From contig JAKLJI010000012.1 in assembly GCA_023151275.1 (NCBI GenBank), forward strand, positions 1 through 64,000: a stretch of 64,000 bases of DNA, written 5' to 3'. Positions 1,100 through 6,490 of the stretch are shown here, one piece after another. Within the stretch, counting starts at the first letter, position 1, and each line of letters begins with the position of its first letter. Position numbers and translations under genes: made by a program. This DNA is from Bacteroidia bacterium. GTDB taxonomy: Bacteria > Bacteroidota > Bacteroidia > UKL13-3. Under the pieces are notes generated by a model. The model was given only the letters and a program-made list of their open reading frames with translations. It made no database searches and was not told where the DNA came from.

Positions 1100-1464
1100 T
1101 TAAGTATTGGGGCTTTCTGGTAAACTGTTTAGAACTAGTTTAATTTTCTCCTTTAAATCCGGAAGATCTTTTTTTAGTTATTTCCCCAAACCAAAGTCGA
1201 ATCAACCCCAAAATACTCATGAACAAAAACATTTCTCATTCCAACTATTTGGGCCCATTCTATTGATGAAAAATTCAATTTGGTTGTATCCGATATATGA
1301 TTGCTTGCTTCTCCTATTATTTCCATCTGCTTTATACATGCAAATCTCATCATTGAATTATTCATGAAGTCCGAAAAATCCTTATCCAACAAGTAGGATT
1401 CAATTTCTAGGATTGCTTCAAAAATGTGCAGTACCCTTACCTTATCTCCAAGTTTACCGCGCAT
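1100..1464 (-). pseudogene. hepT: HepT-like HEPN toxin (DUF86), frameshifted near the C-terminus
   Basis: Reading from 1464, the first 96 residues match the HepT/DUF86 family, including MMRFACIKQMEIIGEA and the HEPN RNase motif R-x4-H-x-Y (RNVFVHEY). The frame breaks just after LVW in a GGGG run and stops at 1174. Removing one G there and one A from a 7-A run a few codons later restores EITKKDLPDLKEKIK and an ending LPESPNT with a stop at 1100. That is the C-terminus expected of the family. The catalytic motif lies before the first break, so a truncated 96-residue product would keep it. The gene follows mntA with an 11-bp overlap. HepT proteins are RNases that inhibit growth and are neutralised by MntA. 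Whether the two indels are true mutations or homopolymer sequencing errors cannot be decided here. Confidence 0.75.
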
Positions 1465-1747
1465 AGATTAGTTTCTTTTCAATATCAATTATTGGTCGGA
1501 TATGTGGTGAAAGTCCTCTGGAAGATACCAAATCCACTTTATTGCCTAATATCTTCTCTAAATCTAATTTCATTTGAATGAACTGTAATCCAATTTTTTG
1601 GGAGTAATCCAAGTCAACAAGTATGTCAATATCACTTTGATAATCCGCTTCGTTTCTAGCAAATGACCCAAATAGGTAAGCATTTAAAACTGGCTTTGTA
1701 GAAAAGTAATTTCTGATAGCATTGATTCTTTCTACTTCTAATTCCAT
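1454..1747 (-). CDS. mntA: MntA-like minimal nucleotidyltransferase antitoxin
   Basis: This 97-residue protein has the minimal nucleotidyltransferase signature: GSFAR at about residue 27, then SDIDILVDLD with the metal-binding Asp pair, and a further conserved Asp in NKVDLVS. Proteins of this family paired with HEPN toxins transfer AMP from ATP onto the Tyr of the toxin R-x4-H-x-Y motif and so silence it. It is the upstream gene of a two-gene unit and its end overlaps the start of the HepT-like frame by 11 bp, the usual arrangement of MNT/HEPN toxin-antitoxin pairs. The antitoxin is intact although its partner is frameshifted. The DNA around it is AT-rich and gene-poor, as expected for an acquired module. 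Confidence 0.85.
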   Translation of the reverse strand: MELEVERINAIRNYFSTKPVLNAYLFGSFARNEADYQSDIDILVDLDYSQKIGLQFIQMKLDLEKILGNKVDLVSSRGLSPHIRPIIDIEKKLIYAR

Positions 1748-5156: not shown

Positions 5157-6314
5157 CTATTCATAATCCTCACCGGATCCACCAGACATTTTCTGAACAA
5201 AATCCGCCTGATATTGCTCCAACTCCGGATTGCTTCGTTCATGCAGGTTGATACAATATTTTAGTCCGGCACCCGCCCCAATGGAACGAACCAAACCCAA
5301 TTCCAACAACAAATTAAAATCGCGCTGAATGGTTTTTCTGTTGCAATCAAATTCATTTACCAGGTCCTTGGTACTAATAAATCCGCGGTGCTGAACGATA
5401 TACATGATTAATTTCTGACGCTTGTTCAAAACACTTTCGTCAATTTCCTTCAACTTATAGCCACGTTCAAACACATAATTCATGATGTTTTTCTGGCGTG
5501 GATTCAGGCGTTCAAAATCTACTTGCTTTCTGAAATATGCTTTCAGCAAATCGCGGATGCGACCTAACTGGTTCAGATGCATACTCAGTCCAAACTGCAA
5601 TTGGTCGTTTAAATGCACCCCTGAGTTGGGCGATACCAACTGCACGTATTCATTCTTGAAGATATAAAGCTCATGCTCCAAACTAAGCAAACCTTCAATT
5701 TCCATCTTGTGCTTGCTTAACCAGAAATAGTGCAATAAACAAGCTGCTTTGGGCTTCAATTCATCAAAGATATCGAGGGCCATTAAGCGGAAATGCAGAA
5801 TCCAGGATTGCATAATGGGATGGAACTCTGAATCGTGATTAAGGAACTCGAAAAGCGAATCCAACTCAAGTTCTGTTTCGGCAGATAAGCGCTCCGGAAA
5901 ACGAAGAGGTTGACCTGAAAATAAATTTTGCTCCAGATTGCTTTGGTACAAGTCCAACACCAACAAGCGGTAAATATCGTAAAACAGGTTCAGGCTAATT
6001 TCCTCGTTACGTCGCTCCAGCAACAAGGCTTCTGCACGTCCAAAAACGTCAATAGCCCGCTCACTCAGGCCATTGGGACGCAGATTCTTGTTCAGGATAT
6101 ACTTAACCGTTTTAATATCCACCAAATTATGATCGAGGGCATTGGCGTAATAGTTCCGCAAAATGGAACTGTTCAGCGCTTCCTGTTCGCGGATGTGAGC
6201 CGGCAGGTCGATAAACTCGAAAATATTCCTCAATTCTTCGGTTTGCTTAATGCATTCCACGAATTGATGGTCGAGTGAAATCTCAGGTTCGTATTTGTTT
6301 ACAAGAATCATCAC
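5157..6314 (-). CDS. Fic-fold protein lacking the FIC motif, with C-terminal winged helix; probable transcription regulator
   Basis: Of 385 residues, about 40-210 follow the Fic protein layout: EALNSS near residue 47 in the place of the usual SSxIEG region, then helices ending in FHPIMQSWILHFRLMA, which aligns with the segment just before the catalytic loop of Fic AMP-transferases. Where HPFxxGNGRxxR should be, the protein reads LDIFDELKPKA, so the catalytic His and the phosphate-binding GNGR are absent. The C-terminal part (about 290-360) is a winged helix with KDLVNEFDCNRKTIQRDFNLL, like DeoR-type or Fic-associated regulators. It is therefore likely to bind DNA and perhaps a nucleotide-like ligand without transferring AMP. 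It is transcribed alone. Target genes are unknown. Confidence 0.7.
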   Translation of the reverse strand: MMILVNKYEPEISLDHQFVECIKQTEELRNIFEFIDLPAHIREQEALNSSILRNYYANALDHNLVDIKTVKYILNKNLRPNGLSERAIDVFGRAEALLLERRNEEISLNLFYDIYRLLVLDLYQSNLEQNLFSGQPLRFPERLSAETELELDSLFEFLNHDSEFHPIMQSWILHFRLMALDIFDELKPKAACLLHYFWLSKHKMEIEGLLSLEHELYIFKNEYVQLVSPNSGVHLNDQLQFGLSMHLNQLGRIRDLLKAYFRKQVDFERLNPRQKNIMNYVFERGYKLKEIDESVLNKRQKLIMYIVQHRGFISTKDLVNEFDCNRKTIQRDFNLLLELGLVRSIGAGAGLKYCINLHERSNPELEQYQADFVQKMSGGSGEDYE

Positions 6315-6401
6315 TTACGAATCTATGCGCTAAATCGCAAGGCAACAGGGCCCCTTTTGGGCTGATTCGGTGGATTTATGGGCGATTTCAAACAGCACAA
6401 T

Positions 6402-6444
6402 AAAAAAAACGCCGAAAACATCAGTAAACACTGACATCTTCGGC
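6402..6444 (-). terminator. Intrinsic terminator for the glycosylation operon
   Basis: On the minus strand, a stem built from GCCGAAGATGTCAGT and its near-complement around a short TTTA loop is followed by GTTTTTTTTATT. It lies 47 bases after the stop codon of the membrane glycosyltransferase gene. Confidence 0.8.
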
Positions 6445-6490
6445 ATTAATAAAATTTAGACAGGCAAAAAAACTGCTGTTAATAAATGGT

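Follow-up and report, generated by a model that had tools for sequence, protein, structure and literature searches.

The locus and the domains of its protein

The window, i.e. the whole stretch of 64,000 nucleotides that was analysed, carries on its (-) strand at 5157..6311 a gene for a putative pseudo-Fic winged-helix regulator (384 aa plus stop). The first-pass annotation had placed the open reading frame at 5157-6314 (-); the frame is present as claimed, and comparison within the family moves the start codon to the ATG at 6311 (MILxNKxEP), the GTG at 6314 lying one codon upstream. The upstream gene ends in a strong terminator hairpin at 6408..6447 (-) (-24 kcal/mol, z -7.3), so the pseudo-Fic gene is a separate transcription unit. 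Its Bacteroidota-type -7 element, TAGATTCG at 6318..6325 (-), ends 6 nt before the ATG, which implies a leaderless or nearly leaderless mRNA. Certain neighbours are common within sub-groups of the family: two downstream on the opposite strand, a CoA-ligase-like gene and one for a small protein, and upstream a TPR membrane-protein gene. Since the neighbours vary between sub-groups and the terminator in the window sets the upstream gene apart, an operon partner was rejected and no functional partner is claimed.

Fic enzymes normally attach AMP to other proteins. The Fic-fold domain of the window protein occupies 5520..6311 (-), approximately residues 1-264, and the SoFic structure 3zec could be aligned over residues 2-264. 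The Pfam Fic model (PF02661) has no match in the window protein at E<=10, and at E<=1 it matches 18 of 40 family members (best 5.9e-6). As a query against PDB sequences the window protein alone gave no match and only the family profile succeeded: the profile of 40 relatives matched SoFic, FICD and other Fics among the solved structures at 2e-5 to 1e-3. With phmmer, a search of the ORFs of the fetched loci retrieved canonical Fics of its own genome at 6.5e-8 and 2e-5. An AlphaFold2 model (pLDDT 80, pTM 0.71) predicts the Fic helical core, by which fold the protein belongs to the Fic/Doc/AvrB (Fido) superfamily. Fic structures rank first in Foldseek with this model (1.1e-7 to SoFic), a second structural alignment to SoFic 3zec gives Z 24.8 and an rmsd of 2.8 A over 240 residues, and the 24 structures with the highest Z all belong to Fic proteins (Z 21-26; with the alignment confined to the Fic domain, the rmsd is 2.4-2.9 A). 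Full-length alignments of the model to Fic structures have a high rmsd, probably because the modelled winged helix sits at a different angle. The phmmer, profile and structure matches rule out a chance resemblance, and the Fic helices that the first-pass annotation had recognised are borne out; structure prediction, which it had proposed as a check with a missing bundle as the refuting outcome, returned the Fic helical bundle. The host genome (G000) as a whole contains nine Fic-domain matches over the Pfam cut-off, located on contigs C8, C10, C17, C29, C32 and C74, four of them on C17.

The only domain that Pfam recognises in the window protein is the DeoR-type helix-turn-helix. This winged helix, with its conserved NRKTIQRDF segment, lies at 5280..5420 (-), residues 298-344, and HTH_DeoR (PF08220) scores 31.1 bits vs a cut-off of 21 (residues 299-345 counted from the GTG), in agreement with the earlier description of an intact C-terminal DNA-binding domain. 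The same model is matched by 40 out of 40 family members, and the core N-R-K-T-x-Q-R-D-F is invariant in 40 sequences. Between the two domains lies a family-specific segment, LNPRQKNIMNYVFERGY..., at 5430..5507 (-) (residues 269-294), which resembles the first helix of the winged helix: 17 residues of LNPRQKNIMNYVFERG align with a score of 42, a value reached by about 1 in 1000 shuffles. The segment was found in members of all four families that carry the protein, and not in the canonical Fics compared. Note that the stretch 5379-5507 (-) thus encodes two similar helices in tandem, LNPRQKNIMNYVFERGY (residues 269-285) and LNKRQKLIMYIVQHRGF (residues 295-311), which may stem from duplication of part of the winged helix.

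The ATCCAC box in the promoter

A conserved box, ATCCAC (in AAATCCACCGA), is found at 6370..6375 (-) in the window, where it starts 64 nt upstream of the ATG and 50 nt upstream of the -7 element. Of the 37 non-redundant promoters of the gene, 29 carry the box at a distance of 49-52 nt upstream of the -7 element, as compared to 0.045 expected by shuffling; as the shuffle was mononucleotide and the promoters share descent, this figure measures conservation and not independent origins. There are also column preferences around the box: ATCCAC tends to have C or G four bases ahead of it and A or T immediately ahead, and to be followed by CA. Basal members have variants of the box, AATAAACAC in L079-L081, TTATGCACA in L084, TTATACACA in L083 and AATCCACAGGAATGTGGATA in L085. 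Anchored column analysis of the promoters revealed no conserved inverted partner half-site of ATCCAC. The sole palindromic form seen is in L085 (f38), where the inverted repeat ATCCACA GGAA TGTGGAT stands about 90 nt upstream of the gene.

A wider regulon reached through the box was considered and rejected. Both the box-spacer-minus7 pattern, searched across 58 genomes, and GTAATCCACCA, searched in 19 genomes from a single genus, gave totals like those of the reversed-pattern control; the count in the own genome was 8 vs 2 in the control (7 besides that of the pseudo-Fic gene), and the genome-wide box searches found no regulon beyond the pseudo-Fic gene itself. The recurrence of the box therefore lies at the gene's own promoter, and its presence there with no clear genome-wide excess elsewhere points to autoregulation. 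Judging from these sequences, the conserved family probably consists of regulators that bind the promoter of their own gene.

The main rival explanation for the box is that it is bound by DnaA or another factor, e.g. a global regulator, in which case the pseudo-Fic protein would regulate unrelated targets. The DnaA box is TTATCCACA, and the ATCCAC box resembles it, closely in some family members: the variants TTATCCACC, TTATGCACA and TTATACACA, present in several members, match or nearly match this consensus. However, the commonest genera read TAATCCACC or ATATCCACC, which depart from it, and the arrangement of box and -7 element has no genome-wide enrichment. On balance we think this explanation unlikely, but serious enough to be kept in mind.

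Loss of the catalytic loop across the family

The former catalytic loop, LDIFDELKPKAA, is encoded at 5742..5777 (-) (residues 179-190). In an alignment with canonical Fics from its own genome, the window protein has LDIFDELKPKAA where they have IHPFxDGNGRxA, and the HPFx[DE]GNGR position reads DIFDELKPK; the HxFx[DE]GN[GK]R loop of PF02661 with its catalytic His is absent from the window protein. The loop residues quoted in the first-pass annotation, and the loss of both the His and GNGR, are therefore correct. The loss is shared by the family: HPFxxGNGR is found in none of 56 aligned family sequences, and the position of the catalytic His is occupied by P (30), K (8), R (5), Q (5), G (3), N (2), D (1), L (1) and H (1), the last being L068, which keeps only the His, without GNGR. 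Other parts of the enzyme differ as well. The region of the substrate-docking flap, a beta-hairpin in Fics, lies at 5868..5984 (-); it is 39 residues long vs a median of 50 in canonical Fics, and has no strands in the AlphaFold2 model, where its pLDDT is <60. The inhibitory [S/T]xxxE[G/N] motif, carried by an N-terminal helix in class II Fics, is missing, and its position (6129..6146, (-), residues 56-61) reads ANALDH. This motif is kept, as STALEG or ATALEG, only in the basal L082-L084 and is gone in the crown group. Since L083 and L084 have ANGR in place of GNGR and Gly in place of the catalytic His, the erosion looks stepwise. The genes of the three basal members (L083, 4001-5149 (-); L084, 3938-5083 (+); L082, 4007-5149 (-)) combine half-eroded motifs (GPWGMANGR, GPFGVTNPK) with the inhibitory-type motif, and on their sequences these proteins are apparent intermediates in the loss of the enzyme.

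Work on Fic proteins has treated them as enzymes, in which an altered motif is usually a sign of other chemistry. The domain could retain a catalytic or nucleotide-handling activity of another kind, like the kinase Doc or the glycosyltransferase AvrB. The metal-site acid (Glu) is retained in 46 of 56 family sequences, 51 have Lys or Arg at the phosphate position, and all 56 have the Ala two positions further on; in addition, other activities are described in Fido members with altered loops (PMC4454073; PMC2686095; PMC10866546). On the other hand, the general-base His is absent in 55 out of 56 sequences, the G-N-G turn is replaced, the flap region is shorter, and the loop is far from constant among the four families, a variability that active sites seldom show. 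We consider retained chemistry improbable. The acid and the Lys/Arg that persist in the old pocket are compatible with ligand binding as well, and from the alignment these former metal and phosphate positions are the likeliest points of contact with a putative ligand.

It is also conceivable that the dead Fic protein serves in trans as an antitoxin or partner of canonical Fics, DNA binding being secondary. There is a precedent for a Fic protein that neutralises another in trans (PMC5651007), and the nine Fic-domain matches of the host genome would offer such partners. However, a canonical Fic motif was found among the neighbouring ORFs in only 1 of 36 loci (L074), and the inhibitory SxxxEG is lost in the crown group, which makes this role very doubtful.

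The loss is shared by several families. An ortholog is present in 52 of the 58 genomes of the host family (absent from G006, G016, G025, G032, G036 and G040; the G036 match at 1.6e-5 has an intact HPFQDGNGR), and among 395 genomes sampled from the class there were further members in families f34, f38 and f58, all motif-less in the alignment. In the phylogeny, 23 motif-less sequences, drawn from the four Bacteroidia families, group in a single clade that excludes the 29 canonical Fics (support 99-100), and the clade is still separate after removal of the motif columns (support 100); the canonical set is a sample picked by motif, so a clade member with an intact motif may exist. A sample of the phylum gave no match beyond the own genome at 1e-15, a null that says little, since the sample seems weighted to well-finished genomes. 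No plasmid relatives were found.

The dN/dS values between relatives are 0.01-0.12, mostly 0.02-0.05, with low values for the Fic part and the winged helix alike; some pairs, the window's own among them, are saturated at synonymous sites. A pseudogene is ruled out by these values. That the gene is decaying, as the lost motif and the failure of the Pfam Fic model might suggest, has a negligible probability given open frames, dN/dS of 0.01-0.12 across many genomes and the presence of an ortholog in 52 of the 58 genomes of the family. The survey of relatives thus found a motif loss conserved under strong purifying selection, and not the decayed copy beside intact relatives that the first-pass annotation had set against its own reading.

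Proposed role and comparison with known systems

We consider it probable that the window protein is a pseudo-Fic DNA-binding regulator that has lost catalysis and kept the fold of its ancestor, a Fic AMP-transferase bearing a winged helix at the C terminus. The ancestor would have had the architecture of SoFic, CbFic2 and CccR; after the loss of catalysis the protein would have been retained as a DNA-binding transcription regulator, its winged helix binding ATCCAC in its own promoter and its Fic domain acting as a dimerisation module, possibly also a ligand-sensing one. The fold, the conserved loss and the purifying selection support the earlier suggestion of a Fic scaffold that is no longer an enzyme but has stayed joined to a DNA-binding domain, and the conserved promoter box adds support to its second part, a transcription regulator. 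More tentatively, we speculate that these proteins are ligand-sensing transcription factors of Bacteroidia, in which a Fic fold without catalysis, flap and auto-inhibition may have come to bind an effector and to mediate dimerisation, and in this way to govern the binding of DNA at one element upstream in the promoter.

It is useful to compare the protein to CccR of Yersinia pseudotuberculosis, an autorepressor and toxin in which a Fic domain is followed by a C-terminal HTH domain that binds its own promoter (PMC9755527). Both proteins have a Fic domain followed by a DNA-binding HTH and are of similar length. CccR, however, retains HPFGNGNGR and AMPylates FtsZ, and its operator is palindromic and located near the -35/-10 elements (PMC9755527), whereas the window protein lacks the catalytic loop and has a single, non-palindromic ATCCAC box about 60 nt upstream. 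Autoregulation has been demonstrated in CccR; in the window protein we infer it from the promoter box and the CccR analogy, and binding of the box by the pseudo-Fic protein is likewise an extrapolation, since the box, unlike the CccR operator, is non-palindromic and without a partner half-site. Our guess is that a box about 60 nt upstream of the start would fit an upstream activator or modulator better than CccR-like repression at -35/-10.

SoFic (SO_4266; 3eqx, 3zcn, 3zec) and CbFic2 (8cil) have the same domain order and rank with the closest structural matches (Z about 24-25); their identity to the window protein is only about 10-14%. Both are active enzymes, unlike the window protein: CbFic2 has HPFDDGNGR and an inhibitory TSAIEG helix, and its DeoR-family HTH binds DNA (PMC10628234). 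AvrB, an effector glycosyltransferase, and Doc, a kinase toxin, are Fido members with altered loops (PMC2686095, PMC4454073); like the window protein they have a Fic-type fold with a departed motif. The winged helix is of the kind common in DeoR/GlpR-type regulators (PF08220), and in the window protein it is C-terminal and joined to a Fic fold. DeoR proteins themselves have an N-terminal winged helix and a sugar-phosphate-binding domain.

Fic-winged-helix fusions and degenerate Fic motifs have already been described (PMC9755527, PMC10628234, PMC4454073, PMC2686095); no description of a conserved motif-less Fic-winged-helix family was found in the literature searched, which covered few subscription papers. 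If the proposed role is true, the Fic fold joins the enzyme domains that have turned into regulatory domains. The defined promoter box makes the regulator idea directly testable, and motif-based annotation overlooks what is a conserved gene of these bacteria.

Two smaller points concern the winged helix and the surroundings of the gene. In three members of f58 the NRKTIQRDF segment has diverged to DKKTIQDEI (L146), DKKTVQDDL (L147) and AEDVINSDF (L148), and from these sequences the three proteins may have lost or changed DNA binding; in general, the winged helix could serve localisation rather than transcription. Finally, at 1174-1747 (-) the window contains tandem genes for a HepT-like RNase (PF01934, 2e-19) and for a nucleotidyltransferase (PF18765/PF01909), i.e. 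a toxin-antitoxin pair of the MntA-HepT type, which was not seen beside the pseudo-Fic gene in relatives. The nucleotidyltransferase of MntA-HepT pairs is an AMP-transferring enzyme.
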